From the NCBI GenBank assembly GCA_017640605.1, contig JAEPQH010000019.1, positions 1 through 64,000 of the forward strand: 64,000 bases of DNA, written 5' to 3'. Below the pieces are notes generated by a model. It searched no databases. It saw nothing but the letters and a program-made list of their open reading frames with translations, and was not told the origin of the DNA. Position 1 is the first letter of the stretch. Each line of letters starts with the position of its first letter. This document shows, piece by piece, positions 24,925 through 41,696 of this stretch. The translations under genes and the position numbers were made by a program. Source of the DNA: Balneolaceae bacterium (lineage in GTDB: Bacteria > Bacteroidota > Rhodothermia > Balneolales > Balneolaceae).

Positions 24925-26613
24925 GTGCTACACTATGGTCGCATAGTTTTACTTTCCTTTCTACTTCTCGGATGTTCTCTTTCTGAAAATAATCCCGTTG
25001 ATGAAAACGTACTGGCTCGAATTGAAGATCATAAGGTTACTGAAACGCAGTTTGTAAATGCATTCAAGCGCAACTTTTATAAAGTGGGGCAAACCCTTCA
25101 GCCATCGCTAGACAACAAAGTTTCGGTTTTAAAGGAAGAGTTTGAAACTTATGTGTTAGCTGTTCACTCCGAAGATTTGGGAATCGCTAACGATGAGCGT
25201 TCAGACCTGGAATATGGTTTGCTGCAACGTAAAGTGTACGCCGAGGAATATTTGCTACGCGAAGTTTTAAGTAAAAAAAATGTAACCGAAGCAGACTTAA
25301 GAGAGTTATTCCTTCGCTTCAACTCAAGGGTTCGAGCTTCCCACCTTTATGCCAAAACCAAAGAAGAAGCTGATAGGTTGTATGAAAGGTTGTTAGCGGG
25401 TGAAAGTTTTGAAGCGTTGGCTGAAGAGGTTTTTACAAATCCATACTTGGCGAATAATGGCGGTGATATTGGTGAGTTTACAGTAGATGAAATGGATATC
25501 GCGTTCGAAAATGCTGCTTTTGCACTGAATGTTGGGGATGTCTCCGCTCCGGTAAAAACCCGACAAGGTTACAGCATCATCAAGCTAACCGATCGGTACA
25601 GCACTCCAATTCTCACCGAGTTTCAATACCAATCGCAGAAAAATAATTTGATGAGTTTGGCAGCTCAGCGAAAGGAAGAGATCGAAACACGAGCATTCAT
25701 CAGTTCTACAATAGATCGTTTAAATATCGATGACGAATTACTTGAAGAATTGTGGGTGGAGATAAACAATGATCAAGCCAACTCAATTGCACATAACTTC
25801 GAAGATCAAACTTTGAATTTCGAATTATCGAATTACAGCAACCAGCCAATTTCCAGCGTAGAGGGTTTTAGTTTTACCGTAGAGAATCTTAAGCAAGAAG
25901 GATTTTATACAGATCCTACGAACCTCGCTAACATCAATGATTTTGATAACTTCAAAGACTTTGTGCACGGTATAATATTTAGAACCTACATTGTTGATCG
26001 ATTTAGAGAAACTGAACATATCAATGATCCGCTGGTTCGCTCCTCCATCGAACAATCGTTTAATGTATACCTAAGCAACCGTGTAAGAACTCACATTTTT
26101 GATTCAATCACTTTTACTGAAGATGAGTTACGAGAAGAGTTCGAGAATAATCGTGAGATGTACGATTTCCCTTTAATGGTAAATACCGGAAGAATTGTAG
26201 TCGCAACAGAAGAGGAAGCTCTAAAACTTAAAAAAGAGTTGGAAGCCGGTGCAGATTGGGAACAAGCGGTAATCAATCACACATTGATAAACCAAGACTT
26301 AATGGTGAATGGTGAAATGGGGTTACAGCCTATTCAAAATTACGGCTCGTATGCATTCGATATCAAAGATCTTTCAGTAAACGAAATTACTGAACCATTA
26401 GCATTCGAGTATGGGCAGTTTGTGCTTTTCAAAGTGTTAGAGATAGAAGAACCAAGGCCATCGACATTCGAAGAATCCAAGGGATTGGTTGAGCGAGTTC
26501 TGAAAAATCAACAAATAGAAGAACGTCTAAAAGCTACGATCTCAGAAACCATGGACAAACACGATGCTGTACTTAATATCGAGAAATTGAAATCAATAAG
26601 AATTGAATTATAG
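24925..26613 (+). CDS. SurA-like peptidyl-prolyl isomerase lipoprotein
   Basis: A 562-residue lipoprotein: signal peptide with lipobox LLLGC (Cys17). The N-terminal helical chaperone-like region is followed by a parvulin domain at about residues 135-235 (RASHLYAKTKEEADRLYERL, NNGGDIGEFTVDEM, GYSIIKLTDR). A second, degenerate parvulin-like domain lies at about 415-510 (TGRIVVATEEEALKLKKELE, FVLFKVLEIEEPRP). This is the SurA/PpiD plan, whose members fold outer-membrane beta-barrels in the periplasm. The GTG at 24925 is the only usable start, with GGAG 8 bp upstream. It is the first gene of the operon and sits 11 bp before the TonB receptor, so a client relationship is suggested but not shown. 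Confidence 0.82.
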   Translation: MLHYGRIVLLSFLLLGCSLSENNPVDENVLARIEDHKVTETQFVNAFKRNFYKVGQTLQPSLDNKVSVLKEEFETYVLAVHSEDLGIANDERSDLEYGLLQRKVYAEEYLLREVLSKKNVTEADLRELFLRFNSRVRASHLYAKTKEEADRLYERLLAGESFEALAEEVFTNPYLANNGGDIGEFTVDEMDIAFENAAFALNVGDVSAPVKTRQGYSIIKLTDRYSTPILTEFQYQSQKNNLMSLAAQRKEEIETRAFISSTIDRLNIDDELLEELWVEINNDQANSIAHNFEDQTLNFELSNYSNQPISSVEGFSFTVENLKQEGFYTDPTNLANINDFDNFKDFVHGIIFRTYIVDRFRETEHINDPLVRSSIEQSFNVYLSNRVRTHIFDSITFTEDELREEFENNREMYDFPLMVNTGRIVVATEEEALKLKKELEAGADWEQAVINHTLINQDLMVNGEMGLQPIQNYGSYAFDIKDLSVNEITEPLAFEYGQFVLFKVLEIEEPRPSTFEESKGLVERVLKNQQIEERLKATISETMDKHDAVLNIEKLKSIRIEL

Positions 26614-26624: not shown

Positions 26625-29513
26625 ATGATAAAGCTTAGATACTTTATTTTACTCGGTTTATTTGGGTTACTTGCCGTTTCGGCAAATGCTCAATCGGGTA
26701 AAATTCAAGGTAAAGTAACAGAAGTGGGTACAGGAGAGCCGTTAACAGGTGCCACTGTAGCTATTCAGGGTACAACAAGAGGTGTGCTGGTAGACATTGA
26801 TGGTAATTATGTAATTCTGAATGTGCCGCCGGGTACGTATACATTGGAAGCGCGTTTTATCGGATTTGCAGCCCAAGTAATCGAAAACGTAGTTGTTCGT
26901 ACCGATTTAACCACCGAAATAGACTTTGAGCTTCGCGAGGAAGTTTTTGAAGGTGAGGAAATTGTGGTACAGGCAGAACGTCCGGTTATTATTAAGGATT
27001 TAACAGCGTCAGAATCGAGAGTAAGTAGTGAAGAAATTGCTTCTTTACCGGTGCAGGAAGTTACCGATGTAATTCAACTGCAAGCGGGTGTTAATATTAG
27101 TAATAATGGTGCAATTCACATTCGTGGGGGTAGAGCTTCCGAAGTTTCTTACGTTGTAGATGGTATTCGTACTACCGATGATTACGATCGTAGCCAGGGT
27201 TTACGAATTGAAAATGAAAGTATTCAAGAGCTTCAGGTAATTTCGGGTACATTTAATGCCGAACACGGTCAGGCTATGTCAGGTATTGTAAACGTAGTTA
27301 CCAAAGCCGGGAATAACGATTATGAGGCTGATTTCAGAGTGTGGGGTGGAACATATCTTGTTTCACGGCCGGAATTGTATGATGGCATTGGCTACATAAG
27401 TAATGACGGAGTAGGTGATATCGACCCAACTCGCATGTATAACTTCAGTGGATCTTTATCAGGTCCGATTTTAAGAGATAAGCTTACGTTTTTTGTAACC
27501 GGTAGATACTTTGAAAATAAAGGATGGTTAACAGGTAGAAATGCTTTTAATGCACAGGGTCCCTTCTCAGAGACTATTAATATTAGTCAATTAGATTCAT
27601 ACAGAACTCCGTATGGCGAGACTTTTGATCCTAGCTTGCCATGGTTTTCGGTAGATACATTAGGTACACAAAATGTGGAAGTTCGTGATAACGGTAAACG
27701 CGACAGTTCGCTAGTTAACATGAACCGTTTTGCTTCCTACAGTTTTCAGGGAAATTTGCAGTATAGAGTATCCAATAGTCTGAAATTCAATCTTGTTAGT
27801 TCTTATGGAAATGAAGAGGGCAGAGGCTATAACCACAGTCGTAAACTTGTACCGGAAGGGGTAAATAGCTTTTATCGCGAGAACTTTTCTGTAAATCTTA
27901 AAACTACGATTACGCCTTCTGCTAAAACTTTCGTAACCATAAATACTGCAACTACTTACAATGGTTTTGAGAGTTATTTGTATGAAAATCTGTACGATCC
28001 AAGATATTTTAATTACGATCAGATTTCAGATATTGAAACCGTATTTGGGGGCATCACTCCGGGACAACCCTTCCAGTTTGATGTACTTGGAACCGATAAT
28101 TCAATTTTTGAGCGTTCAACACGTAGTTTTATCGCAAAAGCTGAGGTTTCAAGTCAGGTTAATGACCGCCATTTCGTAAAAGCCGGTATCAACTTCCAAG
28201 GCGATATTGTAAACTTCGAAAGCATCAACTTACAGCCATTAGGTAATGATGGTGTATCGCTACCTGATGGAGTACCCGATGATGTGCTTCCTTTTGTACA
28301 GCTTGGTTTACCATCCCTTGAAACAACCAACTACAACAGATTCGAAAGAAAACCATATAACTTTAGCAGTTACATTCAGGATAAAATCGAATATGATGAT
28401 TTTATTGTAAACGTTGGTTTACGATTCGATTTCTTCCAGCCTAATGCGCAAATACCAGCAGATCCGCGCGATCCCGACATCACAAATCCAATTCTTCAAT
28501 CGAATATTGATCTAACCAGAGAAGAGCGCGAAGAAATTTGGTGGGAAGATGTAGATCCAAAATTTCAATTGAGTCCAAGAGTTGGTATCTCATATCAAGT
28601 GTCTGATAAAGGTTTATTGTACTTTTCTTATGGATATTTCTTCCAGATGCCATCCTACGAATTCCTTTTCACAAACAGCCAGGTTTTATTACCTGAGAGT
28701 TCTGGAGTATTCGGAATTTTTGGAAATCCTGATTTAAAACCAGAGAGATCTACACAATACGAACTGGGGTCGAAATTTGAGATTATTGAAGGTACAGGTT
28801 TAGAAGTGACAGGTTTTTATAAAGATACACGTGATTACGTTTCTTCAGGTTTGGTTCAACCAACGTACTTAGGGAACGTTCGATATGCACGCTGGATCAA
28901 CCGTGATTACTCTATTTCTAAAGGGCTAACTGTTGCATTAAACCAATATGTAAGCCAACGCATTAATTTTGGGCTCGATTATACCTTCAATACCGTAGAA
29001 GGAAGTAACTCAGATCCCGCGGCCGAGTTTAACCAAGCCGTTTCTTCAGGTGATCTATCAGGAGAATCTTTAACAAAACTCATCCAGCCATTAGACTGGG
29101 ACAGAACGCATATCATTAACGGTACTATGTTCTATGCAGGTAAAAATCATGGCGCCAACGTTGCTGCACGGTTTTTGACCGGTACACCATACACGCCATC
29201 ATCGCCTATTGAGCAGCGTACTGGTCCGGTTGCTTCTGTGCGAGACTTACGTAACACTGCACGTTATCCTGTTCGATTTACCATCGATATAAACACCTTC
29301 TATAATGTGGATATCGCTGGGCAGGATATGCGAATTTTCCTCAACATTTTTAACATCTTAGATAGCCAAGTTGTAAACAGTATTTATTCAGATTCAGGCT
29401 CTCCTGATTTCCCTCTGATCATGCCGATTACATTCGATAATACGTATTTCCAAGATCCTTCAAGATTTGGTGAACCACGACGAATTCAACTGGGTATTCA
29501 ACTTTCATTTTGA
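26625..29513 (+). CDS. TonB-dependent outer-membrane receptor (glucan locus)
   Basis: A 962-residue receptor: signal peptide (cleaved after ...SANAQ, residue 23), a carboxypeptidase-regulatory-like domain at about 25-110 (IQGKVTEVGTGEPLTGATVA), a plug at about 120-230 (QAGVNISNNGAIHIRGGRAS, VVDGIRTTDDYD) and a long beta-barrel ending in RRIQLGIQLSF with a terminal Phe, as outer-membrane barrels do. It imports a ligand using TonB energy. Position before amylase and pullulanase genes and behind LacI-type operators points to maltodextrins or starch fragments. It resembles SusC in domain plan, but no SusD gene follows it. Confidence 0.9.
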   Translation: MIKLRYFILLGLFGLLAVSANAQSGKIQGKVTEVGTGEPLTGATVAIQGTTRGVLVDIDGNYVILNVPPGTYTLEARFIGFAAQVIENVVVRTDLTTEIDFELREEVFEGEEIVVQAERPVIIKDLTASESRVSSEEIASLPVQEVTDVIQLQAGVNISNNGAIHIRGGRASEVSYVVDGIRTTDDYDRSQGLRIENESIQELQVISGTFNAEHGQAMSGIVNVVTKAGNNDYEADFRVWGGTYLVSRPELYDGIGYISNDGVGDIDPTRMYNFSGSLSGPILRDKLTFFVTGRYFENKGWLTGRNAFNAQGPFSETINISQLDSYRTPYGETFDPSLPWFSVDTLGTQNVEVRDNGKRDSSLVNMNRFASYSFQGNLQYRVSNSLKFNLVSSYGNEEGRGYNHSRKLVPEGVNSFYRENFSVNLKTTITPSAKTFVTINTATTYNGFESYLYENLYDPRYFNYDQISDIETVFGGITPGQPFQFDVLGTDNSIFERSTRSFIAKAEVSSQVNDRHFVKAGINFQGDIVNFESINLQPLGNDGVSLPDGVPDDVLPFVQLGLPSLETTNYNRFERKPYNFSSYIQDKIEYDDFIVNVGLRFDFFQPNAQIPADPRDPDITNPILQSNIDLTREEREEIWWEDVDPKFQLSPRVGISYQVSDKGLLYFSYGYFFQMPSYEFLFTNSQVLLPESSGVFGIFGNPDLKPERSTQYELGSKFEIIEGTGLEVTGFYKDTRDYVSSGLVQPTYLGNVRYARWINRDYSISKGLTVALNQYVSQRINFGLDYTFNTVEGSNSDPAAEFNQAVSSGDLSGESLTKLIQPLDWDRTHIINGTMFYAGKNHGANVAARFLTGTPYTPSSPIEQRTGPVASVRDLRNTARYPVRFTIDINTFYNVDIAGQDMRIFLNIFNILDSQVVNSIYSDSGSPDFPLIMPITFDNTYFQDPSRFGEPRRIQLGIQLSF

Positions 29514-29530: not shown

Positions 29531-32500
29531 ATGATTAAAAAAACACTAATTACAGCATTTATTTTCTTCTTTCCGGCGCTGCTTTTCGCTCAATCGAGCA
29601 CATATGAGCCCAGTGAAGAGCGAGCTTCCTTCCAGCAAAGAAAAAAATCTATTATGGATGGTAACCGGCTTCGGGCAACGTACCAAAATAGTGGTCACGC
29701 CGGGAGATATGACGGGCAAAACACGGATGAAATTTTATTCGAATTCCCAATAAACACCGACAGAACATATATTTATTTTGTGTCGGCTGTAATGGGAGCG
29801 GAGGTAAATAATCAGCATCCTAATGCTTCGGAACCAACGTTCCCGATTATCAACGTTGCGGAAGGTAGAACTTCAAGTGAAGGCGATTCGTGGACAATGA
29901 ACCCAATTGAAGGCTATGCACGCCCTGTTGAAGACACGGGCGAAATGGCACGAAGCGACCGAGGCCCCGGATCTATTTTAGGTAATACCTGGCCGGATGT
30001 ATGGCCTGATAAACTGGAAAACGGTGGCGATGGTTGGGCCGGATCATGGAACGGATACTTCGGTCGTGATCAATTTAGTGCCGATCTGGAGTTTTATTAC
30101 AAAGCCGGAGATGACTTATACAAACGTTTTCTTGAAGGAACATCACGAAATCAACAATTCCAGCCTGATTCAACCGATCCTACTCGCGGTGGTTTAGGAA
30201 TTTTATTAGATACTAGAATTCTTGCTTGGTCGCAAACTCTCATCAATTCGACCCACTTTAATATTTTCGAAATTACTAACGATGGATCGCACGATTACCG
30301 CAAAGTCGCCTTTGGTTTATGGATTGCGGATTTGATTGTGGGGCAGGCTGATACGCCCGAGTTTGATGACCTTAGATCGATTGCATTCGTTGCTACTTCA
30401 CAACGAACACCGGCACCGGAGCAGTTTGACGGACCAATTGGAGAAATGGGTGTGAAATTCCTTGAAACACCCGGTAACTCCATCGATGGTATTGATAACG
30501 ACGGGGACAGCTATTTCTTTGATATGCAAAACTCGTTCTACGATTCTGATAATGCCGATATTTATCAGCCATTAACAAGTGCAGATGGTTTTTACACCCG
30601 CGATTCTCTCGTTAATGCAGTAATCCCAACATTTAGCATCACCTCATTTAGCGAAACTACAATTTGTCCGGGTGATAAAATTGTGCTTATCACCGACGAA
30701 GGAGATCGAATTATCTCTACTTATCCTGCGGATGGTGAATCAGTATATTCTCGCGGACAAACCATCACCTCTGATGGAAGTTGTTTAACGGTTACGGAAG
30801 ATTTCTTCCCTGATGTGTTAGCCGAAGATCCTTTATCTACCATTCACGTAGATCAGATTGATAATGATTTAGATGGTTTGATTGACGAAAACCGACCTAA
30901 TCACTTAAATAAAGCTACGTTCATTAATAATGCTGAGCAGATTGTAGCTGTACGACATATTAATTACATGAACTTTAATGTGGGTGATACTCTGCAACGT
31001 GGCTTAATTGTGCCGAATAGAGTGATTCGAGAGCGAATGGCTTCTGATGCTTCATTCAATACGTTGGTAACCGAATATCAGGATATGTTGCGAACGATCT
31101 ACGGAGCTACACGTTCTGAAGAGTTTTATAGTACCTACTACATCAATCAATTTACTGCGGCGCCAATGATAGATGAAGCTCGTGATGATCTTTTCGATAA
31201 CGATCAGGATTGGTTTACCGCTCAGGATGATGTTGGGATCGAAGGAGATGGTGATGAACCAAGTGCTGGGCAAAACGACGGGTTTCCAACCTCGGGTGGA
31301 ACTACTTCGTTTCCGGGAGAGCCAAACATCGATAAAACCGATGTTGCAGAGAGTGACCAACTTGGGGTTTCTCGAGCTAGAATTTTTGCAGCCGGATCAT
31401 TCCCAATTGCTCAGGACGCCACTGTGTGGAGAAACTTTTTGCTTCCGGGTGATTTCGAACGAACAGGCGAAGCCGGCCGTGATGATGATATCTTTGTTTC
31501 GTCTTCACTCTTCCCATTAGCGAAAGGGCAAACCGAACGTTTTGCAGTAGCTATAACCGGTGTGCAAACCAAAAGCCAGAATGCACAAGACGATCGTAAT
31601 CTAACAAACGATAATCTCGATCAGGCATTTACAGCTTATGATAATGATTATCAGTTTGCTGTTTCACCACAACCACCGATAGTTACGGCCGTTGCAAGCG
31701 ATGGAAAAGTAACACTGTATTGGGATGATAGTGCAGAAAGCTCGTTCGACCGATATTTACAGCGAATTACCGGTAATGGCTTCGATTTTGAGGGATACAA
31801 AATCTATCGTGCAACCGATGAATCCTTCGAAGAAGTGCTAAATATCACCGATGGTAGAGGAAATCCGCAGTTTAGAACTCCTCTCGAAACCTTTGATGTG
31901 ATGAACGGAATTAAGGATTACCATCCAACAGCGGTTAATGGAGTTCAGTATTATTTAGGTAACGATTCCGGTTTACAGTACACCTTCGAAGATACCACCG
32001 TAACAAATGGCCGACGCTATTTTTACGCCGTTACCTCGTTCGACTTTGGTGCCGAAGTTGCAGGAATTGCTCCATCCGAATCCAGAATTCAGATTAGTAG
32101 AAATCCGGATGGTTCTTTTGTGCTTGGGCCAAATGTTGTGCAAGTACGTCCTGCTGCAGAGCAAGCCGGATATGTTTCGCCAAAAAATCCAATGGCAACC
32201 ATCACCAGTGGATCGCCGGGTGGAAGAGTTGAAGTTGAAATGGTTGATCCGGTAGAACTACGGGCTGACAATGTTTACAGTGTAACTTTTAAGGATACAT
32301 TGATTGCAGGGCAACCCGGAAAACCGGATACGGTTAAAACCAAAAGCTTTACACTTCGCAATGTTACGGATGGAGGTAACGATACCTTAATCGTAGATTC
32401 TGAGAAGTTTAATGGCGAAGAGCTTCCCGTTTTTGAAGGTTTTAAAGTGAGAGTTATTAACGAAACCGAGCGTGGAGTAAATCAAGAGTTAACGGGATGG

Positions 32501-33424
32501 AATACCAATCGAGATGTTACCCTCAATAACTTTCAGTTTACCGTTGCAAATACTCGACAGAATATTGCCGATTACATGGTAGTATTTGATGATTTGGGCT
32601 TTGGGCAATCCAGCGATATTACTATCGAACGCGCCCCCGGTAGATTTCAAAGTTATCCATCGGTGCCAACCAACTTTAAGGTATTTAATAGAGCTACCGG
32701 CGAAGAAATTAAGTTCGCCTACCAATCGGTAACTCGTACACCGTCAACGAATTGTCAGTTTGAGCCTGCAGTTGGTGAAGTAGGAGAGTTTTCAGCTTAT
32801 CGACAAACTGGTCCTGGTTTATTCCTGCCTTGTAGCGGCGCACTTTCTGATAATATGTACTTTATCGAAGATTTCCGTGGCGAGGAAGATGTAGCCACCT
32901 ATCGAATTCGAATGGAAGTAATTACTGAAGAAGTTGATGACGAAACAGTAACAATCAGTGAAAATCCAGCCGCTGGCGATACCATCTATGTTACCTTGAA
33001 CAAACCGTTCATCGAAGGCGATGAATTCCGATTCAGAATTCAAGATGTAAACCAGCCTATGATAGATAATGAGCTGGCAAAAGAAGAATTGGAAGACATT
33101 AAAGTAGTTCCGAATCCTTACATCGTTTCCAACCCATACGAGATTAGTGCTACCAGCACGAACAGGCAGCAACGTAGAGAATTACACTTTACACATCTGC
33201 CCGTGCCTTCAACGCTTCGCATATTTACCGTCTCTGGCTTCTTAGTAGAAGAAATTGAAATCACCGACAACAATGTACGTCGTGTTGGTGGCAATTTTGG
33301 TGGGACCTACGTGTGGGATATGTTAACCAAAGACAATCTGGAAATATCGTATGGGGTCTATCTGTATCACGTAGATGCTCCGAATATTGGTGAAAAAACA
33401 GGCAAATTTGCAGTCATTAAATAA
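29531..33424 (+). CDS. Very large exported protein with Asp-rich repeats, FN3-like module and sorting-like tail
   Basis: 1297 residues from the ATG at 29531, where the signal peptide begins (MIKKTLITAFIFFFPALLFA); a TTG at 29510 overlapping the receptor stop would add seven residues. There are three calcium-loop-like segments near residues 318 (DGIDNDGDSYFFD), 439 (DQIDNDLDGLIDE) and 550 (DLFDNDQDWFTAQDD). A fibronectin-III-like segment lies near 713 (PPIVTAVASDGKVTLYWDD). The end, from KVVPNPYIVSNPYE near 1190 to GVYLYHVDAPNIGEKTGKFA, resembles T9SS C-terminal domains. The function is unknown. The position, directly after the receptor, is where susD would be expected, although it has no TPR-like SusD fold that I can see. 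Confidence 0.75.
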   Translation: MIKKTLITAFIFFFPALLFAQSSTYEPSEERASFQQRKKSIMDGNRLRATYQNSGHAGRYDGQNTDEILFEFPINTDRTYIYFVSAVMGAEVNNQHPNASEPTFPIINVAEGRTSSEGDSWTMNPIEGYARPVEDTGEMARSDRGPGSILGNTWPDVWPDKLENGGDGWAGSWNGYFGRDQFSADLEFYYKAGDDLYKRFLEGTSRNQQFQPDSTDPTRGGLGILLDTRILAWSQTLINSTHFNIFEITNDGSHDYRKVAFGLWIADLIVGQADTPEFDDLRSIAFVATSQRTPAPEQFDGPIGEMGVKFLETPGNSIDGIDNDGDSYFFDMQNSFYDSDNADIYQPLTSADGFYTRDSLVNAVIPTFSITSFSETTICPGDKIVLITDEGDRIISTYPADGESVYSRGQTITSDGSCLTVTEDFFPDVLAEDPLSTIHVDQIDNDLDGLIDENRPNHLNKATFINNAEQIVAVRHINYMNFNVGDTLQRGLIVPNRVIRERMASDASFNTLVTEYQDMLRTIYGATRSEEFYSTYYINQFTAAPMIDEARDDLFDNDQDWFTAQDDVGIEGDGDEPSAGQNDGFPTSGGTTSFPGEPNIDKTDVAESDQLGVSRARIFAAGSFPIAQDATVWRNFLLPGDFERTGEAGRDDDIFVSSSLFPLAKGQTERFAVAITGVQTKSQNAQDDRNLTNDNLDQAFTAYDNDYQFAVSPQPPIVTAVASDGKVTLYWDDSAESSFDRYLQRITGNGFDFEGYKIYRATDESFEEVLNITDGRGNPQFRTPLETFDVMNGIKDYHPTAVNGVQYYLGNDSGLQYTFEDTTVTNGRRYFYAVTSFDFGAEVAGIAPSESRIQISRNPDGSFVLGPNVVQVRPAAEQAGYVSPKNPMATITSGSPGGRVEVEMVDPVELRADNVYSVTFKDTLIAGQPGKPDTVKTKSFTLRNVTDGGNDTLIVDSEKFNGEELPVFEGFKVRVINETERGVNQELTGWNTNRDVTLNNFQFTVANTRQNIADYMVVFDDLGFGQSSDITIERAPGRFQSYPSVPTNFKVFNRATGEEIKFAYQSVTRTPSTNCQFEPAVGEVGEFSAYRQTGPGLFLPCSGALSDNMYFIEDFRGEEDVATYRIRMEVITEEVDDETVTISENPAAGDTIYVTLNKPFIEGDEFRFRIQDVNQPMIDNELAKEELEDIKVVPNPYIVSNPYEISATSTNRQQRRELHFTHLPVPSTLRIFTVSGFLVEEIEITDNNVRRVGGNFGGTYVWDMLTKDNLEISYGVYLYHVDAPNIGEKTGKFAVIK

Positions 33425-33430
33425 GTAGTC

Positions 33431-34459
33431 ATGAAATTTCAATTAACAATATTGTCCATTATTGTAGCATTTGCCTTCACCAATGTAGAAGTGGCAAAAG
33501 CTCAATCAGTAAGTAAAACAGGAACCACCGCCGGAGCTTTTCTTCAGATTCCGGTGGGTGCGCAGGCATCGGGCATGGGCGGGGCTGTAGCTGCTCATGT
33601 TAACGATGCATCTGCCATGTTCTGGAATCCGGCCGGTTTGGCGGATATAGAATCAAACGAGTTAATGGTAGAATATGCAGACTGGTTTGTGAATATTAAT
33701 CACAATTATTTTGGTATTGCGATACCTACAAAAAAAGGAGTAGCAGGCGTAAATGTGGTGGCATTAACCATGGGAGAATTCGAAGAAACAACCTACGATA
33801 ACCCCGAAGGTACAGGTAGAACATTCAGTGCTTATATGTTATCAGGCGGTGTTTCTTACGCTCAATACCTATTTGAAGGATTTAGAATGGGCGGAAATAT
33901 TAAGTTCGTGCACGAAAAAATAGCCGAAACATCTGCCACTGCTTTTGCTTTTGATGTAGGCACCATGTACAAGCTACCATTTAACGACATTCGATTTGGT
34001 GTAGCAATTACCAACGTTGGAACACAAGCTCAACTTGATGGAGATGGCTTAATAACTCCGGTTGATGTTGCCGACGAAATTGATGGCAATTATATTGCTG
34101 ATTCTAAACTCGCAACCGATGCTTTCAATCTGCCCATCAACCTTAAAGTTGGTTTTGCCGGCGAAGTAATCGACAACGATCAATTGCGGGCAACGCTGAG
34201 TATCGATGGAAACAGTCCTTCTGATAACGTGCAAAGTGTAAGTATTGGAACTGAAATTGCGTTTTTAGACGATTTATTTTTGATCCGTGCAGGCCTGCCT
34301 TACCTGGGTATGGAAGACCGGGTGCAAAAGTATAATTTTGGAGTGGGTATTAACCGCGGCTTCAACAGAAATAATTTGAAAATGCGATTCGGATATTCTC
34401 TGGAATCGTACAAATATTTAAACTCTGTGAATAGAATCAGTTTGCAGATTTTATTTTAA
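33431..34459 (+). CDS. PorV/PorQ-family outer-membrane barrel
   Basis: A 342-residue protein with a signal peptide (cleaved after ...VAKAQ). The start of the mature chain, AFLQIPVGAQASGMGGAVAA, then DASAMFWNPAGLADIE, is the hallmark of the PorV/PorQ family, FadL-like barrels that in T9SS organisms shuttle or attach secreted cargo at the surface. The rest is beta-barrel-like, ending in RISLQILF. It lies 6 bp after the large exported protein and 37 bp before a protein with a T9SS tail, so it may be a locus-specific cargo-handling paralogue. A substrate-channel role is the alternative. Confidence 0.82.
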   Translation: MKFQLTILSIIVAFAFTNVEVAKAQSVSKTGTTAGAFLQIPVGAQASGMGGAVAAHVNDASAMFWNPAGLADIESNELMVEYADWFVNINHNYFGIAIPTKKGVAGVNVVALTMGEFEETTYDNPEGTGRTFSAYMLSGGVSYAQYLFEGFRMGGNIKFVHEKIAETSATAFAFDVGTMYKLPFNDIRFGVAITNVGTQAQLDGDGLITPVDVADEIDGNYIADSKLATDAFNLPINLKVGFAGEVIDNDQLRATLSIDGNSPSDNVQSVSIGTEIAFLDDLFLIRAGLPYLGMEDRVQKYNFGVGINRGFNRNNLKMRFGYSLESYKYLNSVNRISLQILF

Positions 34460-34496: not shown

Positions 34497-37400
34497 ATGA
34501 ACAAAGCTACAAAGCTGTTAATGTCGATTTCTGTATTCAGCATGCTGTTTGCAGTTAGCGCATTAGCTCAGGATCCAACAGATGCTCCTCCTGCTCCAAC
34601 GCAAGACGAAGCAAATGTTATTTCGTTATTCAGTGATGCATACACTGATGTAACGGTTGACACATGGAGAACAAGTTGGTCAGCGGCAACCTTTAAAGAC
34701 ACAACCATTGCAGGTAATGCGGTAAAACGCTACACCTCTCTTGATTTTGTCGGTATAGAAACCGTTGCTAATCAGATTGATATAAGCGGAATGACACACG
34801 TCAATTTCGATTTATGGACACCAAACGCTACTACTTTCAGAATCAAAATTGTTGATTTTGGTGCAGATGCAGCATTTGGTGGAGGTGACGACGTAGAGCA
34901 CGAAGTTGCTTTTGAAAGCGTTGCACAAGGCGAGTGGACTACATACAGCATTTCGCTAGCCAGCATGACCGGTTTAACCACGCAAGGCAATATTTCACAG
35001 ATTATTTTCAGTGGATTGCCAACGGGTGGCGTAACTGCATTTATCGATAATTTATTCTTCTCGGATGAAGGTGTTATCAATATGGTAGATGCTCGCGCTT
35101 TAGATCTGGGAACCGAAGTAACTGTTGAAGGGGTATTAACCACTCCGGATTTCAACTTCTTTAATAATCAGTTCTTTATGCAAGATGCTACTGCCGGTAT
35201 TTCTGTTTACATCGATGGTGATGACGCGGTAGGTACCAACAGCGATGGAAATTCTCCATTTGCAGCAGGTGATATTGTACGAGTAACCGGTACATTAATC
35301 GATACTAATGGTTTACTCCAGGTTGAGTCAGATTCAACTAAGTACACTATTCTTAGCTCGGGTAATGCGTTACCTGCTCCTGTAACAATCACCGAAGCAG
35401 ACATTTCTCTAGATAGTAAATATCAGGGTATGCGTGTTACTTTAAGTACAGCTGCAATGTTAGCAGATGGCGAAACTTGGCCAGAAGATGCCCAAACCAG
35501 TTCGGGTGTTAATGTTGATGTTGTTGCAGGCGATTCTACCTTCACAATGCGTATAGATCGCGATGAGTCTTTCTATGATGGTGCACCAGCGCCAACCGAG
35601 AAATTCCAGCTTTCAGGTAACTTGGGTGCATTTTTCTCTCCACAAATCTTCCCATTTATCGAAGGTGATGTAAGAAATGCATACAAAGTTAACTTTACAG
35701 TAAATACCGCTACGCATCCGGATACGTTGATGGAGGATCATTTCATCCAGCTACGTGGTGCCATTAACGGATCTACCGGTGCATACTTTGGCGGTCAGGT
35801 AATCGATTGGAATTCTTCTTCTACCTTTGTTGCAGAAAACCAAGGTGGCGATTACTGGAGCATCGATAGCTACATGCTTGATGGTGATGCATTAACCTAC
35901 AAAGTTTGGTCTGGTTATGATGCTAACACTGGTTCTAACAATGGTGACGGTGGCTGGGAAATTACCGGTCCTGATCGTCCTACGCGTTCGTTCACAGTAT
36001 CAGCAGATACCATGGTAACTTTATGGTCAGAAAGTCTTTCTGCTCCATTCGAAACCAATGCCGATAGCGTAAGTCTTTTCTTCCGTGTAAATGTTGGCGC
36101 GTTCGTACAGGATGGTTCATTCGATCCGGCAAACGACAAAGTGGGTATTCGTGGAAACGACCAAGTATTCATGAATCCTTCTGATTGGAGTTCAACAGCT
36201 ATTTATCTTTCAAAAGAAGAGCGTGTAGCTGCTGACGGTACCCCAATCGAAGACGATAACTTATTCTATTCCGGTACAGTATTAGTAGACAATGAAGCTG
36301 CAGATACTTTAGGTTCTTTACCTTATAAGTTTGTATTAGAAACCGGATCCGGTGTTCTTTGGGATAACAAAGACGGAAACCAAGATGGTAACCGATTTAT
36401 CGATATACCTGCTTCAGATACAACTGTACATTGGGTGAATTTCCAAGGAAAAGCTCCAACCAATGCTCAAATTGTAACTGCAAATGTTACTTTTGAAGTA
36501 AGTACTGCTGTACTTGAAGTATTAGGTTACTTCGACTCAGGTATTGGCGATAAAGTTGTAGTTCGTGGTGAACCACCATTGGATTGGGGAACTAGCGACT
36601 TCAATACTGCTACATTCGATGATCAGGATGTATTATGGAGATTAACTCAAGAATTCACTAAAGCAGTAGGTTCATCATTCAAGTACAAGTACTTTATTGA
36701 ATATGATGCCTCTAGAAGCGATGCTAGCTCCGATAACTACATCGAAGCAGTAGCTGAAAGTGGAGACTTCGGTTACGAAGAACCGGTAACTACCGGTGGT
36801 GCCGATCGTTTCTTCGACTTTAGTGACGAAGTAACCCAAACTAAAGGTGTTCAGTATTTCAACGATGTGAACACAGGTGCCATTATCCAAGCGGGTAACA
36901 CTCCAAATGGAACCATGTCTGTTACATTTAGAATCGACATGACAGCTGCACTTACTGCAGATGTGCCTTTCCGTCCTGGAACCGATTCATTGTACATGCA
37001 GCTTGAATCTAAATTCACTGCATTAACAAACGGTTTCCGTTCAGGTGGTGGATATTTCGATGATATCACTGCAAACGGAACTGCAGCCGATATTGAATTC
37101 TTACGTTACACACCAGTTGATGGTGAGGACAATATTTACGAATTAACGCTAGACTTAGACCTCACTTCTGGAACCCTAAACGACTTCGGTTATGTAGTTC
37201 GTTATGGTGAGCCATTTAGTGATTACGAAAGCATGGTAGTGAACGGTGGCGGCTTTGCAGCCGGTCGACGTTTCTATCAATTCGTAGATCCATTATCAGT
37301 TGTTAACCTAGGTAACGATCCGTTTTTAGGTGAAGTTCTTCAGTCTCAATGGCCAGAAACCTTCACCATGAAAACTGTTGCTTGGGCTGAATCAGATCTA

Positions 37401-37733
37401 GAGTTCGATGTACAGCCAGATTACGCTGGTCTTGCAACTTCTTCTGATCTTGAGCCAGTTAAACCAGAAGCATTCAGTTTATATCAAAACTATCCTAACC
37501 CATTCAACCCATCAACAAACATTAGCTTTACGTTACCAAACGCAGCTGACGTACGATTGACGGTATACAATGTGCTAGGACAAGAAGTTTCTACACTAAT
37601 TAATGGCAAAACTCTGAACAGCGGTACACATACCGTTGCTTTCGATGCCAGCGCTCTGTCTTCAGGTATGTACATTTACCGTATTGAAGCGGGCAACTTT
37701 ACAAGCACTAAGAGAATGATGCTTATTAAGTAA
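34497..37733 (+). CDS. Multi-module cell-surface protein with T9SS type A tail, SusE/F-like in concept
   Basis: 1078 residues. Signal peptide (MNKATKLLMSISVFSMLFA, cleavage after ...LAQ). Residues 40-190 form a carbohydrate-binding-like beta-sandwich (ANVISLFSDAYTDVTVDTWR, MTHVNFDLWTPNATTFRIKI). Residues 195-390 look like an OB-fold module. Four similar modules then start near 398, 524, 661 and 806, each opening with a V-x-F-x-V/I strand and containing segments such as DKVVVRGEPPLDWG, recalling starch-binding modules. The tail from 988 (AFSLYQNYPNPFNPST) to ...KRMMLIK is a T9SS type A sorting domain. It contains no catalytic motif. I infer a surface glycan-binding role by analogy with SusE/SusF; no sequence homology to them is claimed. 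Confidence 0.72.
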   Translation: MNKATKLLMSISVFSMLFAVSALAQDPTDAPPAPTQDEANVISLFSDAYTDVTVDTWRTSWSAATFKDTTIAGNAVKRYTSLDFVGIETVANQIDISGMTHVNFDLWTPNATTFRIKIVDFGADAAFGGGDDVEHEVAFESVAQGEWTTYSISLASMTGLTTQGNISQIIFSGLPTGGVTAFIDNLFFSDEGVINMVDARALDLGTEVTVEGVLTTPDFNFFNNQFFMQDATAGISVYIDGDDAVGTNSDGNSPFAAGDIVRVTGTLIDTNGLLQVESDSTKYTILSSGNALPAPVTITEADISLDSKYQGMRVTLSTAAMLADGETWPEDAQTSSGVNVDVVAGDSTFTMRIDRDESFYDGAPAPTEKFQLSGNLGAFFSPQIFPFIEGDVRNAYKVNFTVNTATHPDTLMEDHFIQLRGAINGSTGAYFGGQVIDWNSSSTFVAENQGGDYWSIDSYMLDGDALTYKVWSGYDANTGSNNGDGGWEITGPDRPTRSFTVSADTMVTLWSESLSAPFETNADSVSLFFRVNVGAFVQDGSFDPANDKVGIRGNDQVFMNPSDWSSTAIYLSKEERVAADGTPIEDDNLFYSGTVLVDNEAADTLGSLPYKFVLETGSGVLWDNKDGNQDGNRFIDIPASDTTVHWVNFQGKAPTNAQIVTANVTFEVSTAVLEVLGYFDSGIGDKVVVRGEPPLDWGTSDFNTATFDDQDVLWRLTQEFTKAVGSSFKYKYFIEYDASRSDASSDNYIEAVAESGDFGYEEPVTTGGADRFFDFSDEVTQTKGVQYFNDVNTGAIIQAGNTPNGTMSVTFRIDMTAALTADVPFRPGTDSLYMQLESKFTALTNGFRSGGGYFDDITANGTAADIEFLRYTPVDGEDNIYELTLDLDLTSGTLNDFGYVVRYGEPFSDYESMVVNGGGFAAGRRFYQFVDPLSVVNLGNDPFLGEVLQSQWPETFTMKTVAWAESDLEFDVQPDYAGLATSSDLEPVKPEAFSLYQNYPNPFNPSTNISFTLPNAADVRLTVYNVLGQEVSTLINGKTLNSGTHTVAFDASALSSGMYIYRIEAGNFTSTKRMMLIK

Positions 37734-37756: not shown

Positions 37757-37797
37757 CGCAGGTACTCTGATCGGTACCTGCGTTATTAATTTTTTTC
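37757..37797 (+). terminator. Intrinsic terminator between the two blocks of the glucan locus
   Basis: Perfect 9-bp stem CGCAGGTAC / GTACCTGCG with an 8-nt loop, followed by a T-rich run including seven Ts. It separates the uptake genes from the regulator/hydrolase genes. Confidence 0.85.
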
Positions 37798-37804: not shown

Positions 37805-38794
37805 ATGGCATCAACCATTTACGATATAGCTGAAAAGGCAGGGGTGAGTATCGCTACCGTTTCAAGGGTGTTTAACCAAAGTAACAGCGTTTCTGAAGCA
37901 ACTCGCAAGAAAGTGCTTCGCGTTGCTGATGCGGTGGGTTATCATCCCCAAGCGTATGCTCAAGGCCTTGCCCGAAGTAAAAGTAACACGATCATGGCCG
38001 TGGTGCCTGTGATCTCCAATTACTTTTTTATGGAAGTTCTGGGCGGCATTCAGGATAAACTGAGTGAACAAGGCTATGAACTCACCATTTTTAATGTAAC
38101 TGCTGGCGAAAATCTTTTTAACGAGGTTGAACACGTGTTAAAACGTCGTTGGGCAGAGGGGTATTTATTTATTTCTATTCATCTTACCGACGATCAGTTT
38201 TTAAAATTAAAACGGTTCAATCTTCCTATTACATTAATCGACGAACATTACGAAGGTTTCGATTCAGTTTCGGTGGATAATGTACAAGGTGCTTATCGGG
38301 CTACTAAAACGCTTATCGAACATGGTTACCGGAAAATTGCAATGCTTTCGGCATTAAGCTCTTCGAAACCTATTCGCGATCGATTAGAAGGATACTGTAA
38401 GGCATTAACCGAACACGGAATTCCATTTGATGAAAACTACGTAGTGTCCGGTTCTTCATTTTATCGTGATGGTTTTACCGAAAAGGGCGGATTTGAAGCC
38501 ATGAAAGCGATGCTGAATATGCAAGATCCGCCGGAAGCCTGTTTTTGTGCCTCAGATATTCAAGCAGTTGGCGCTCTAAAAGCAATGGACGATTCCGGAA
38601 AACGTATCCCGTTAATCGGTTACGATGATATTGAACTATCCGAATACATTGGCTTAAGCACAATACGTCAACCCATGCGCGATATGGGCTATTTTGCTAC
38701 TCAGAATTTAATCGAGCGACTGAATAACGCCAATAAAGCTATTTCGCAGACTATTTATTCACCAGAATTCATACAACGTACATCAACATTTTAA
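37805..38794 (+). CDS. LacI-family transcriptional regulator
   Basis: A 329-residue LacI/GalR repressor. The helix-turn-helix is at residues 4-24 (IYDIAEKAGVSIATVSRVFN), with the hinge helix region (RKKVLRVADAVGYHPQAYAQ) next, followed by a periplasmic-binding-protein-like sensor domain (NTIMAVVPVISNYFFMEVLG, GYDDIELSEYIGLSTIRQPM). It starts 8 bp after a terminator and ends 1 bp before the amylase gene, so it is translated with the hydrolase genes. By context it should sense maltose or a maltodextrin and act at the two TGWAANCGNTNWCA operators upstream of 24925. Whether it represses or activates is not visible. Confidence 0.92.
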   Translation: MASTIYDIAEKAGVSIATVSRVFNQSNSVSEATRKKVLRVADAVGYHPQAYAQGLARSKSNTIMAVVPVISNYFFMEVLGGIQDKLSEQGYELTIFNVTAGENLFNEVEHVLKRRWAEGYLFISIHLTDDQFLKLKRFNLPITLIDEHYEGFDSVSVDNVQGAYRATKTLIEHGYRKIAMLSALSSSKPIRDRLEGYCKALTEHGIPFDENYVVSGSSFYRDGFTEKGGFEAMKAMLNMQDPPEACFCASDIQAVGALKAMDDSGKRIPLIGYDDIELSEYIGLSTIRQPMRDMGYFATQNLIERLNNANKAISQTIYSPEFIQRTSTF

Positions 38795-38795: not shown

Positions 38796-41696
38796 ATGCA
38801 AAACCCAAAAAAACTGTTCACTTTCACATCACTTTTTATAGTACTTGTAGCATTACAAACGCAGGTTTGGGCGCAAGTTGTCACGTTCTCGCCATCCTTT
38901 GCAACTTCCGAAGATTCAATGCGAGTTGTACTCGATGCTACTCAAGGAAATGAAGGCCTCGTAAATTTTGATGGTCGCGTTTACTTACACACCGGTCTGA
39001 TTACCAGCAAAAGTACCAGTGGTAGCGATTGGCAATATGTACCTTTTGGTTGGGAAACCAACGATGCAAGCGTTGAGGCAACGAATCTCGGAGATAACAA
39101 ATGGGCTTTTACATATAAACCATCTATCCGTGAATTTTTTGGTGTTACAGATCCTAACGAAGTTATCGAGCAAGTAGCCATTGTATACAAAGGAGTGAGA
39201 AATGGCTCAATTGTGGCCGAAGGCAAAGATGAAGGAAATGCCGACATTTTTATCGAATTAACAGCAGGGGAAGCTGCTGCTCGCTTCGTTACTCCTGACA
39301 GCGATTACGAGTTTCTAAAAAGTGATGAGAGCTTAGAATTAGTTGGTATTGGAACTGTTAATTCAGGTGATTTAAGTCTCGAATTATTTAAGAACGATGT
39401 ATCAGTAGCAACTACTTCTGATGATACGTTACGATTTACTTATGTACCAGAAGCGGGCGACACTGACATTGAATTCGATTTAGTAGCTTCAAATGGAGCT
39501 GCTCTTTCTGATACTGCTTCCTTTTTTGTAACTGTTCGTGCAAATGATGGGGAAGTAGCAGCAAGACCGGATGGTTTAGAAGATGGAATCACTTACAACA
39601 GTGATACTTCTGTTCAGCTTTCGCTATATGCACCCAATAAGGATTTTGTGTATGTGATTGGCGATTTTAACGATTGGACACCTTCCTCCGAATATTTAAT
39701 GAATAAAGATGTGCAAGGTGGTGATGTTTGGTTTTGGACAGAAATCGATGGGCTTACGGCCGGCGAGCAGTATGGAATGCAATATTTGGTTGATGGAGAA
39801 ATTAGAATTGCCGATCCATATTCTGAACTGGTACTCGACGAATTCAACGATCAATTTATTTCGGATGACGTTTTCCCTAATCTAAAACCATATCCTGCGG
39901 GTAAAACTTCACAAATGGTTGGGTTATTAACTCCCGGTGAAACCGAATACGTGTGGGAAGTAACTGATTTCGATGCACCAGATAACGATGAACTTGTAAT
40001 TTATGAATTACTGCTTCGTGACTTTATTGCCGACCACAGCTACGAAACCTTACTCGATACGCTTGATTATATCTCAAATCTTGGTGTAAATGCCATCGAG
40101 TTTATGCCTATCAATGAATTTGATGGCAACGAAAGCTGGGGTTACAATCCTGCATTTCATCTTGCGCTCGACAAATACTACGGCACACCAAATGCGTTCA
40201 AGCGTTTTGTAGACGAAGCCCATAAAAGAGGAATTGCAATAATTTTAGATGTGGTTCTAAATCACTCTTTTGGCCAAAACCCGTTAGTTCGACTTTGGAA
40301 TGAAGGCGACTTTGGTACTCCAACAGCTGAAAATCCTTATTTCAATCAAGTAGCCAAGCACGATTTTAATGTTGGGTATGACTTCAATCACGAAAGTTCT
40401 GCTACCCGGTATTATTCTAAGCGAGTAATTGAATACTGGCTGGAAGAATATAATGTGGATGGTTTTCGCTTTGATCTTAGTAAAGGATTTACTCAGAAAA
40501 ATTCTCTTGGAAACGTTGGATTATGGGGACAATACGATCAGTCTCGTGTTAATATCTGGTTAGATTACTACGCTCACACCAAAAGTATAAACCCGGAAGC
40601 GTATGTTATTCTGGAGCATTTTGCCGATAATAGCGAAGAAAAAGTACTTGCCGATGCAGGAATGATGCTTTGGGGAAATTCTAATCACGAATATAACGAA
40701 GCAACTATGGGGTATAACTCGAACCTTTCGGGAGTTCTATCTAGCTCAAGAGGTTTTCAGTTTGGACACCTTGTAAGTTATATGGAAAGTCACGATGAGC
40801 AATGGTTGATGTTCAAAAATATCAGTTTCGGTAACTCAAGTGGCGATTACAATATTCGTGAGCTTGGAACTGCACTCGACCGAATGGAACTCGCTGGTTT
40901 ATTCTTTTTCCCACTTCCTGGTCCACGTATGATTTGGCAGTTTGGTGAACTTGGTTACGGCTACGGCGATGATGGCGAGCAATGTTTAAGAGATTCTCCT
41001 GACTGTCCTGCAGCAGCACCCGGTAGAACAGCGAACAAACCGATTCGGTGGGATTACAACGAAGATCCGGATCGAAAAGATGTATACAATACCTGGGCGA
41101 ATCTTATTAACCTAAGAAGAAGTTCACCTGCTTTTACCCGACCTGAGAATGCTGATTATTCGCTGAATGGATCATTCAAATATTTCCGTTTAGAACATTC
41201 TGATACCGACGTAGTAGCTATTGGTAATTTTGGAGTTACGCAAACTACAAGAACAGTAGATTTTACAGAAGGCGGTGTTTGGTACGATTTCTTCAATACC
41301 ACAACTATTGATGTGAATAACGACACCAAGCAGGCCGAGTTTACCTTGGCACCGGGCGAATATCGCTTATTCACAACCAAAGAATTCAACAAATCGGTTT
41401 CATCAGAAATCGAAGTATCCGATGACGCACCAATGGCATACAACCTGTATCAGAACTACCCAAATCCTTTCAATCCATCAACAAATATTACTTTTGATGT
41501 AGCCAAGTCAGGATTTGTGAGTCTAGAAGTATTTAACATGCTGGGTCAAAAAGTTGCTGATTTAGTACAAGAGCCCAAAGCAGCCGGTTCGTATACCGTT
41601 CGTTTTGATGCAAGCGGATTGAGCAGTGGAGTGTATATCTATCGCTTGCGATCCGGCAATGCGGTTAAAACACAAAAAATGATGTTACTTAAATAA
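38796..41696 (+). CDS. Secreted GH13 alpha-amylase with CBM48-like module and T9SS tail
   Basis: 966 residues. Signal peptide to about residue 27 (...QTQVWAQ). After an N-terminal beta region, residues 268-350 look like a CBM48/isoamylase-N module (YVIGDFNDWTPSSEYLMNKD). The GH13 barrel runs from about 410 to 810 with all four conserved regions: DVVLNHSFG, GFRFDLSKG (nucleophile Asp560), ILEHFAD (acid/base Glu607) and ESHDEQ (Asp667). The tail (YNLYQNYPNPFNPSTNITF to ...MMLLK) is a T9SS type A sorting domain, so the enzyme should be at the cell surface or released. It would start starch breakdown outside the cell. It begins 1 bp after lacI. Confidence 0.93.
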   Translation: MQNPKKLFTFTSLFIVLVALQTQVWAQVVTFSPSFATSEDSMRVVLDATQGNEGLVNFDGRVYLHTGLITSKSTSGSDWQYVPFGWETNDASVEATNLGDNKWAFTYKPSIREFFGVTDPNEVIEQVAIVYKGVRNGSIVAEGKDEGNADIFIELTAGEAAARFVTPDSDYEFLKSDESLELVGIGTVNSGDLSLELFKNDVSVATTSDDTLRFTYVPEAGDTDIEFDLVASNGAALSDTASFFVTVRANDGEVAARPDGLEDGITYNSDTSVQLSLYAPNKDFVYVIGDFNDWTPSSEYLMNKDVQGGDVWFWTEIDGLTAGEQYGMQYLVDGEIRIADPYSELVLDEFNDQFISDDVFPNLKPYPAGKTSQMVGLLTPGETEYVWEVTDFDAPDNDELVIYELLLRDFIADHSYETLLDTLDYISNLGVNAIEFMPINEFDGNESWGYNPAFHLALDKYYGTPNAFKRFVDEAHKRGIAIILDVVLNHSFGQNPLVRLWNEGDFGTPTAENPYFNQVAKHDFNVGYDFNHESSATRYYSKRVIEYWLEEYNVDGFRFDLSKGFTQKNSLGNVGLWGQYDQSRVNIWLDYYAHTKSINPEAYVILEHFADNSEEKVLADAGMMLWGNSNHEYNEATMGYNSNLSGVLSSSRGFQFGHLVSYMESHDEQWLMFKNISFGNSSGDYNIRELGTALDRMELAGLFFFPLPGPRMIWQFGELGYGYGDDGEQCLRDSPDCPAAAPGRTANKPIRWDYNEDPDRKDVYNTWANLINLRRSSPAFTRPENADYSLNGSFKYFRLEHSDTDVVAIGNFGVTQTTRTVDFTEGGVWYDFFNTTTIDVNNDTKQAEFTLAPGEYRLFTTKEFNKSVSSEIEVSDDAPMAYNLYQNYPNPFNPSTNITFDVAKSGFVSLEVFNMLGQKVADLVQEPKAAGSYTVRFDASGLSSGVYIYRLRSGNAVKTQKMMLLK

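Follow-up and report, generated by a model that had tools for sequence, protein, structure and literature searches.

Gene organization of the locus

The window, by which we mean the whole 64,000-nucleotide stretch of DNA that was analysed, carries on its + strand a gene cassette whose first gene (24925–26613) encodes a PPIC-type peptidyl-prolyl isomerase of 562 amino acids (SurA/PrsA-like; Pfam Rotamase_2, 1.9e-21). A 962-amino-acid TonB-dependent receptor follows (26625–29513, + strand) in which Pfam finds CarbopepD_reg_2, Plug and TonB barrel domains, and which scores 74 bits against the SusC/RagA model TIGR04056, whose cut-off is 368. The next gene, here called BIG (29531–33424, + strand), runs uninterrupted for 1297 codons from the ATG at 29531 to the stop at 33422–33424, and an alternative in-frame TTG start 21 bases 5' of the ATG would give 1304 residues. 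Behind it lie a 342-amino-acid outer-membrane barrel of the PorV/PorQ family (33431–34459, + strand), assigned by NF033709 and by fold matches, and a type IX secretion system (T9SS) type A protein of 1078 amino acids (34497–37733, + strand; TIGR04183 2.2e-13, PF18962 1.8e-12), which is the last gene of the cassette before a terminator-like hairpin at 37757–37782 (+ strand). Terminator-like sites across the region show no excess over shuffles; promoter-like sites near the cassette are rarer than in shuffles and were not used as evidence.

The genes that follow, all on the + strand, encode a LacI-family regulator (37805–38794), a GH13 amylase-type enzyme with a CBM48 module and a T9SS tail (38796–41696), a GH13 amylase (41723–43093), an MFS transporter (43111–44631) and a GH13 pullulanase-like enzyme with CBM48 and SpuA_C (44656–46962). 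The glycan of this locus is probably alpha-glucan, and two paralogous cassettes adjoin other carbohydrate genes. No tRNA was found in the 64,000 nucleotides.

The BIG protein

The N terminus of BIG is a Sec-type signal peptide with the end ...FFFPALLFAQ, covering residues 1–20 (29531–29590, + strand) by our own reading of the cleavage site; Q21 is invariant among the 47 relatives aligned, and no cysteine or lipobox is visible near the signal peptide end (ALLFAQ). The original prediction of a 1297-residue exported protein placed directly after a TonB receptor agrees with the reading frame, with this signal peptide and with the 17 bases that separate the receptor stop from the BIG ATG.

Neither Pfam nor NCBIfam supplies a family name for BIG, and its body has no relative above chance level in Pfam, NCBIfam or the PDB. 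An AlphaFold model of residues 22–1190, built from 12 alignment rows, is poor (pLDDT 55, pTM 0.43); it is mostly beta, with no binding site seen in it at that quality, and a Foldseek search with it returned mostly FN3 chains, none with a TM-score above 0.08 when normalized to the query. Because the model is poor and these TM-scores are low, we claim no fold for the body. A conserved block at about residues 713–850 (31667–32080, + strand) stands out by its invariant columns and weak FN3 matches. The FN3-like module that had been proposed is weakly supported, by a PDB FN3 match at E 0.17 and by the FN3 chains that head the Foldseek results for the low-confidence model; it has no match in Pfam.

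Three DxxDNDxD loops had been noted in BIG, and all three are there: DGIDNDGD at residues 319–326 (30485–30508), DQIDNDLD at 441–448 (30851–30874) and DLFDNDQD at 553–560 (31187–31210), all on the + strand and spaced by 122 and 112 residues. When the residues were shuffled, the wider pattern D..[DN][DN]D.D occurred a mean of 0.014 times, and three occurrences were reached in 0 of 5000 shuffles. Loops 1 and 3 are conserved (D322 in 44 and D556 in 46 of the 47 relatives), and loop 2, within a variable insert, is aligned in 32 of the 47. The number of motifs per relative ranges from 0 to 5, and in three loci (L072, L073 and L088) only 16 residues separate loops 1 and 3. The suggestion that the loops mark a repeated domain of about 115 residues with metal-stabilized turns does not hold across the 47 relatives, in which both loop count and spacing vary, and a regular calcium-binding repeat protein was rejected on the same uneven spacing and counts. 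Loops 1 and 3 look like conserved turns flanking a variable insert.

The C-terminal tail and the adjoining barrel

Residues 1190–1297 of BIG (33098–33421, + strand) form a T9SS-type C-terminal domain (CTD) that is PorU/PorZ-like by family profile. The two best solved matches to a profile of 36 BIG tails are PorU 6za2 (E 0.0021) and PorZ 5m11 (E 0.013), and at E 0.01 the PorZ model matches 31 of these tails, the PorU model 25 and the type A model 18. The window's own BIG protein matches none of the PorZ, PorU and type A (TIGR04183) models, so the case for a T9SS tail rests on the family profile; the sorting-like tail foreseen earlier is thus upheld by the profile and the relatives, and the tail of the window protein taken alone matches no model.

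Measured from the PNPY motif, BIG tails have a median length of 98 residues (62 genes) against 77 residues (60 genes) for the shorter type A tails encoded nearby in these loci, a comparison confined to complete genes with the motif, which kept 60 of 83 type A query matches. In PMC11285876 the uncleaved CTDs of PorZ and PorU are given as 96 and 108 residues and cleaved CTDs as 67–88, and PorU and PorZ are described as retaining their CTDs, held on PorV and PorQ (PMC5562754, PMC10202324, PMC11285876). Tail length need not imply retention, however, because the extra length in PorU and PorZ is mostly a hairpin that a section heading of PMC11285876 terms functionally not relevant. A read-through model of the tail with PorV (pTM 0.79) could speak to CTD binding only indirectly. 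The distance correlation between tail and PorV is weak (0.19 allowing for the receptor, 0.15 allowing for the BIG body) and lies below that between tail and receptor (0.33), so these data do not show specificity between CTD and barrel.

The barrel itself scores 174.8 bits against NF033709 (cut-off 90), which places it in the PorV/PorQ family, and falls below the curated cut-offs for PorQ (101.6 of 220 bits, NF033711) and PorV (58.9 of 250 bits, NF033710). We rejected it as canonical PorV or PorQ on these scores and because the canonical genes lie elsewhere in the genome, where PorV (adjoining PorU) and PorQ are separate genes, each above its cut-off. Its best fold matches are 8gl6_F (Z 33.5; PorV from a RemA-CTD-bound complex) and the PorV chain 6h3i_F (33.1), with FadL-type channels lower at Z of 30.7 or less; against the BamG model it reaches 22 bits (cut-off 250). 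The PorVs of such receptor–BIG–barrel triplets do not form a single clade in a tree. Together, a PorV-family neighbour and a PorU/PorZ-like tail suggest a way in which BIG may be exported and held.

Conservation of the cassette among relatives

Synteny was tallied on six-frame segments for 67 BIG genes scoring above 300 bits in 63 of 64 chosen loci; the 735-amino-acid relative in L011 scores below 300 bits and so falls outside the tally. A same-strand receptor lies within 2.5 kb of 63 of the 67 genes, and at most 300 bases upstream in 59. The homologues thus stand beside TonB receptors, as predicted, and the opposite arrangement, most of them lying away from receptors, is not what these loci show. 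A PorV/PorQ-family gene lies on the same strand within 2.5 kb of 60 BIG genes, a PorV-family barrel at most 300 bases downstream of 56, and both a receptor and a PorV-family gene are near 57.

Four of the seven BIG genes that lack a barrel are near a contig end (L054, L017 and the second genes of L013 and L016). The first BIG gene of L013 is followed by another receptor–BIG pair and the first of L016 by another BIG gene; in L095 the PorV gene is truly absent within 2.5 kb, despite 7 kb of downstream sequence. Four BIG genes have no receptor within 2.5 kb: the one in L015, which starts at a contig end, and the second ones in L016, L055 and L019, each preceded by another BIG gene or by the barrel of that gene. 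Among the 63 other loci listed, 20 have a relative of the isomerase immediately 5' of the receptor, and type A genes are common neighbours of the cassette.

Distances of the BIG body and of the receptor correlate at 0.92 (0.67 allowing for PorV). The cassettes are passed on as units: body and receptor share their nearest neighbour in 34 of 52 loci where about 1 would be expected.

Distribution relative to SprA and SusD

We compared 247 genomes, a sample whose members are not phylogenetically independent, so that the SprA and SusD contrasts below are confounded by phylogeny. Matches to BIG at E below 1e-25, a threshold set after seeing the lists, were called strong (91 genomes, the weakest at 1.3e-29); the 32 weak matches are at 2.1e-13 or weaker. 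SprA, the translocon of the T9SS, is present in all 91 strong-BIG genomes, and a BIG match of any strength occurs in 0 of the 57 genomes without SprA, 20 of which are listed, 19 of those from one family. When genomes with at least 7 of at most 9 scored SusD matches are called SusD-rich, again by a threshold chosen after seeing the lists, a strong BIG match is found in 0 of 57 and a weak one in 5 (G064, G158, G162, G178 and G207).

A similar pattern is seen at closer range. In the window's family, 17 genomes with BIG have 0–4 SusD matches and 13 others have 4–9; in genus g2, seven BIG genomes have 1–4 and the one genome without BIG has 6; in genus g4, two BIG genomes have 2 each and two without BIG have 9 and 4. 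By the PF07980 model at E 1e-10, 47 of the 91 strong-BIG genomes have no SusD match; SusD and BIG occur together in the other 44, and the genome from which the window comes contains three SusD matches. We favour the view that the distribution of BIG, opposite to that of SusD, points to a role as receptor partner, as does the carbohydrate neighbourhood.

Interpretation

The cassette and the secretion of its large protein are well supported: BIG has a Sec signal, a CTD at the family level, and its strong matches lie in genomes with SprA. We consider it somewhat more likely than not that the T9SS secretes BIG, that the tail of BIG is left uncleaved and sits on its own PorV paralogue, and that BIG is thereby held over the receptor as an analogue of SusD. 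After export by Sec, for which the signal peptide is seen in the sequence, BIG would be taken from the translocon by the adjacent PorV/PorQ-family barrel and not by canonical PorV; its CTD would stay uncleaved by analogy with PorU and PorZ, so that the barrel would remain its membrane anchor. A large, probably beta-rich ectodomain on or beside the receptor could then capture ligand, probably alpha-glucans, and present it in SusD-like fashion. BIG would thus be an analogue of SusD that differs in descent, secretion route and anchor.

BIG might instead be ordinary T9SS cargo, carried by canonical PorV and cleaved at its CTD by PorU, and so an LPS-attached or released binding protein or adhesin, with the PorV-family neighbour acting for the type A proteins encoded here or in FadL-like transport. 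We regard this as unlikely, if a serious alternative. The genome does have canonical PorU and PorV, the cassette often has genes for type A cargo beside it, half of the 36 tails are recognized by the type A model and the tie between tail and barrel is no stronger than their shared history; yet the PorZ and PorU models match more tails than the type A model does, BIG tails are longer than those of type A, and such cargo would not need the PorV-family gene that accompanies 60 of 67 BIG genes.

Less probable still is an accessory role for the cassette in assembly or secretion, in which barrel and BIG aid export of the type A protein (34497–37733) or folding of the receptor, and not ligand capture. 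The canopy that BamG and BamH form over BamA, as described in PMC12611786 and PMC12578637, is a precedent for a FadL-fold barrel with a surface protein, and the isomerase gene at the head of 20 of the 63 other loci listed and the frequent type A genes beside the cassette would suit such a function; but each cassette has its own receptor, unlike a general factor, and the BIG body follows that receptor most closely, with a distribution opposite to SusD. That BIG is a calcium-stabilized coat or adhesion protein, linked to receptor genes only through shared regulation, is very improbable despite its conserved DxxDNDxD turns and the mostly beta, low-confidence body model, given that the cassettes are inherited as units, body and receptor having a common nearest neighbour in 34 of the 52 loci where chance would give about 1.

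Returning to BIG as a receptor partner, we advance more tentatively, as a proposal somewhat short of probable, that the cassette represents a second, independently evolved form of TonB-linked glycan capture, in which a large T9SS-delivered partner, docked through its uncleaved CTD on a dedicated PorV paralogue, forms a complex of receptor, partner and barrel that replaces SusD as a main surface binder and vanishes where SusD expands, in Balneolota, other GTDB Bacteroidota lineages and further FCB phyla. If true, a T9SS-delivered, barrel-anchored partner would join two systems mostly studied separately, give a role to some of the many PorV paralogues of these genomes, provide genes with which ideas on the unnamed proteins adjoining TonB receptors can be tested, and extend cognate pairing of CTD and barrel beyond sortase and gliding proteins.

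Comparison with known systems

The SusD fold is alpha-helical and TPR-like. BIG was rejected as a SusD protein, with no SusD family found in it by Pfam at E of 1 or less, nor in 12 relatives at 0.05. With the partners in SusC/SusD and RagA/RagB it shares an extracellular location and a gene that, in carbohydrate loci, comes directly behind that of a TonB receptor (the role of SusD in the receptor partnership is described in PMC7029141), whereas it has no lipobox cysteine, a T9SS-type tail in place of a lipid anchor and an extra barrel gene, and its receptor scores far under the SusC cut-off. The PorU–PorV and PorZ–PorQ pairs, which belong to the attachment complex of the T9SS (PMC5562754, PMC10202324), likewise combine a large T9SS-type protein bearing this kind of CTD with a PorV/PorQ-family barrel; unlike PorU and PorZ, BIG has a body that matches no sortase or PorZ model and is linked to a TonB receptor.

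In type B systems, a substrate gene is likewise followed by its own FadL-type barrel, and this cognate PorP/SprF barrel is described as carrying and anchoring its substrate (PMC12618676, PMC9143113), but the BIG tail is PorU/PorZ/type A-like and its barrel is of the PorV/PorQ family. These two papers deal with adhesins and gliding; neither TonB nor SusD turned up when the main text of PMC9143113 was searched for these terms. BamG–BamH resembles the proposed arrangement in that a FadL-fold barrel holds a surface protein over another barrel, although BamH, unlike BIG, is a lipoprotein and the BAM complex folds outer-membrane proteins (PMC12611786, PMC12578637).

A literature search of open-licence PubMed Central papers found no description of the cassette. 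It has probably been published, as hypothetical proteins, in the xylan locus Rmar_1069–1073 of Rhodothermus marinus, a match that we make by description: in the account given in PMC6987092, TonB receptor 1070 is followed by hypothetical proteins, of which Rmar_1071 and Rmar_1073 have Por sorting domains, and Rmar_1072 would then be the cassette barrel. That locus differs in that SusC and SusD are also present (PMC6987092).

BIG sits third in a compact cassette

The gene at positions 29531-33424 of the window is an open reading frame whose 1297-residue product starts with a Sec signal peptide, and it is preceded, in a compact cassette whose genes all lie on one strand, by a PPIase gene (24925-26613) and a TonB receptor gene (26625-29513). 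This protein, BIG, is followed by a PorV/PorQ-family barrel gene (33431-34459) and a type IX secretion (T9SS) type A protein gene (34497-37733), with a terminator-like hairpin (37757-37782) 3' of the latter. In the 1078-residue type A protein, long stretches have no assignment and the DUF5689 and OB-like matches are weak; it is possibly a starch-binding surface protein. The body of BIG (all but its C-terminal tail) matches no named Pfam or NCBIfam family.

Three DxxDNDxD loops are present in BIG as originally noted, and the motif count lies above that of all 5000 shuffles. Their reading as turns of a repeated domain was not borne out, since only 16 residues separate loops 1 and 3 in three homologous loci (L072, L073 and L088); loop spacing in the window thus measures an insert rather than the period of a repeated domain. 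Among 47 relatives, D322 of loop 1 is conserved in 44 and D556 of loop 3 in 46, and loop 2 lies inside the variable insert. We infer that BIG may bind a ligand, bind metal and touch the receptor.

BIG occurs in T9SS genomes beside a receptor and a barrel

BIG is matched at E 0.001 or better in 123 of 247 genomes of the phylum, 91 strongly (E 1e-25, a cut of our own choosing) and 32 weakly; in the weak cases the shared part may be only the tail or the FN3-like part. A scan of named genomes yielded eight loci, their records naming Balneolaceae, Gracilimonas, KSB1 (two), Caldithrix, Melioribacteraceae, an FCB group bacterium and, in one case, Acetofilamentum. Relatives with names (L012, Balneolaceae; L018, Gracilimonas) point to Balneolaceae as the probable origin of the window's genome. 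The T9SS translocon SprA is present in all 91 strong-BIG genomes, and BIG matches of any strength are absent from the 57 genomes that lack it. This pattern is consistent with BIG being a T9SS substrate, though the genomes are not independent (of the 20 SprA-less genomes listed, 19 belong to one family).

We compared 64 loci: the window, three stretches of its own genome, the eight from the named-genome scan and 52 hand-picked from the match list of other genomes, which make up a sample and not a census. The tally, made on six-frame segments and counting BIG genes above 300 bits, gave 67 such genes in 63 of the loci. A same-strand TonB receptor lies within 2.5 kb of 63 of the 67, a PorV-family gene of 60, and both of 57; within 300 bases, the receptor is upstream at 59 and the barrel downstream at 56. 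The order is receptor-PorV-BIG in L079 and L098, and a PPIase gene separates receptor from BIG in L087. Four loci (L013, L016, L019 and L055) carry two BIG genes each; in L055 (2891-10807, minus strand) one receptor is followed in tandem by BIG (1325 residues), a PorV-like gene, a shorter BIG (946 residues) and a PorV-like gene, which is a duplication of the BIG-barrel pair behind a single receptor. L095 (7149-10877) has an upstream receptor but lacks a PorV-family gene within 2.5 kb, and is the sole such case in which 7 kb of downstream sequence is covered.

Cassette components share their history

Pairwise-distance correlations across 52 cassettes, which include species history, are 0.92 for body and receptor, 0.86 for body and PorV, 0.885 for PorV and receptor and 0.71 for tail and PorV; the largest permuted value is 0.24. 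Nearest neighbors agree in 28 to 34 of the 52 cassettes, about one being expected, and of the own-genome paralogues L009 is nearest to L083 in all four parts and L010 to L018. With PorV controlled for, the partial correlation of body and receptor is 0.67; with the receptor controlled for, those of body and tail with PorV are 0.27 and only 0.19. These sequence distances therefore favor a tie between BIG body and receptor, with species history still within the correlations, and offer little for a tail-barrel tie beyond shared history. In the PorV tree the window and its orthologous cassettes group together (100/99); cassette PorVs overall require three label changes, with deep forks lacking resolution and long branches meeting.

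The barrel and the BIG tail

The window barrel scores above the PorV/PorQ family cut-off and far below those of PorV and PorQ, and its nearest solved folds are PorV of the RemA-CTD-bound complex (Z 33.5) and PorV 6h3i_F (33.1). Its genome has 14 PorV/PorQ-family matches, nine above cut-off; canonical PorV (302 bits) adjoins PorU (1112 bits), and PorQ (266 bits) is at another site. Three PorV-family genes belong to receptor-BIG-barrel cassettes (those of the window, L009 and L010); another two directly follow a receptor or receptor-tail-protein pair with smaller BIG-like proteins nearby. One of these stretches, L122 (1889-8192, C7), has a TonB receptor, a 704-residue protein whose tail is of BIG type and whose match over the whole length is weaker, and a PorV-family gene, perhaps a reduced cassette form; in the other (C1), a TonB receptor directly precedes a PorV-family gene (L121, 4936-8888), and some 5 kb upstream of this receptor lies a 735-residue BIG-like tail protein (L011, 7675-9882). 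Elsewhere in the same genome, L125 (5126-8690, C26) has a 530-residue protein with a T9SS-like tail, then two consecutive PorV-family genes, with no TonB receptor in the stretch, and L124 (7141-8226, C14) a lone NCBIfam PorV2 (NF052325) match of 284 bits (cut-off 325).

Tail and barrel of the window are in the same frame, and their read-through translation was used for structure prediction (mean pLDDT 79, pTM 0.79, 79 residues below 50). Since a pTM near 0.65 would be expected of an undocked tail by our rough estimate, the tail is likely docked on the barrel in this model, where the covalent link may by itself promote contact.

A PDB search with a profile of 36 tails gave PorU 6za2 (E 0.0021), then PorZ 5m11 (E 0.013). 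At E 0.01, 31 of these tails match the PorZ model, 25 PorU and 18 type A; the window tail alone matches none of the three. PorU and PorZ are described as anchored by PorV and PorQ with their CTDs not cut off (PMC5562754, PMC10202324, PMC11285876); cleaved CTDs are given as 67-88 residues, and those of PorZ and PorU as 96 and 108 (PMC11285876). Median tail length is 98 residues from PNPY for BIG (62 genes) versus 77 from NPF for type A proteins (60 proteins, same loci). However, PMC11285876 terms the hairpin behind most of the CTD length difference functionally not relevant, which weakens the argument from length and lowered our confidence in the full mechanism, in which BIG would be a receptor partner, delivered by T9SS and anchored by its own PorV paralogue. 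We consider that mechanism somewhat better than an even bet, and we are highly confident that BIG is secreted by the T9SS and is genetically linked with receptor and barrel.

Function and comparison with SusD systems

The genes downstream of the cassette encode a LacI regulator, two GH13 enzymes, an MFS transporter and a pullulanase-like enzyme, a set that suggests a starch or maltodextrin locus. Beside the L009 cassette are a CBM9 T9SS protein, GHL10 enzymes and a sodium symporter, and beside L010 a CBM4_9 T9SS protein; the same module with such varied carbohydrate genes nearby argues for a general uptake role.

SusD (PF07980, 1e-10) is matched in 121 of the 247 genomes, including 44 of the 91 with strong BIG matches (47 have none); no strong BIG match falls in any of the 57 SusD-rich genomes, five of which have a weak one. 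In the window's family, 17 BIG genomes have 0-4 SusD matches versus 4-9 in 13 others; the window genome has three, and SusD and BIG can coexist. The single parts of the cassette (Sec export, T9SS-type tail, TonB receptor) are ordinary, and no description of the receptor-BIG-barrel arrangement was found in the literature searched. The published Rhodothermus marinus xylan locus (PMC6987092) lists SusC and SusD and, next to them, a TonB receptor with hypothetical proteins bearing Por tails behind it, and from that description we take it to contain a probable BIG cassette.
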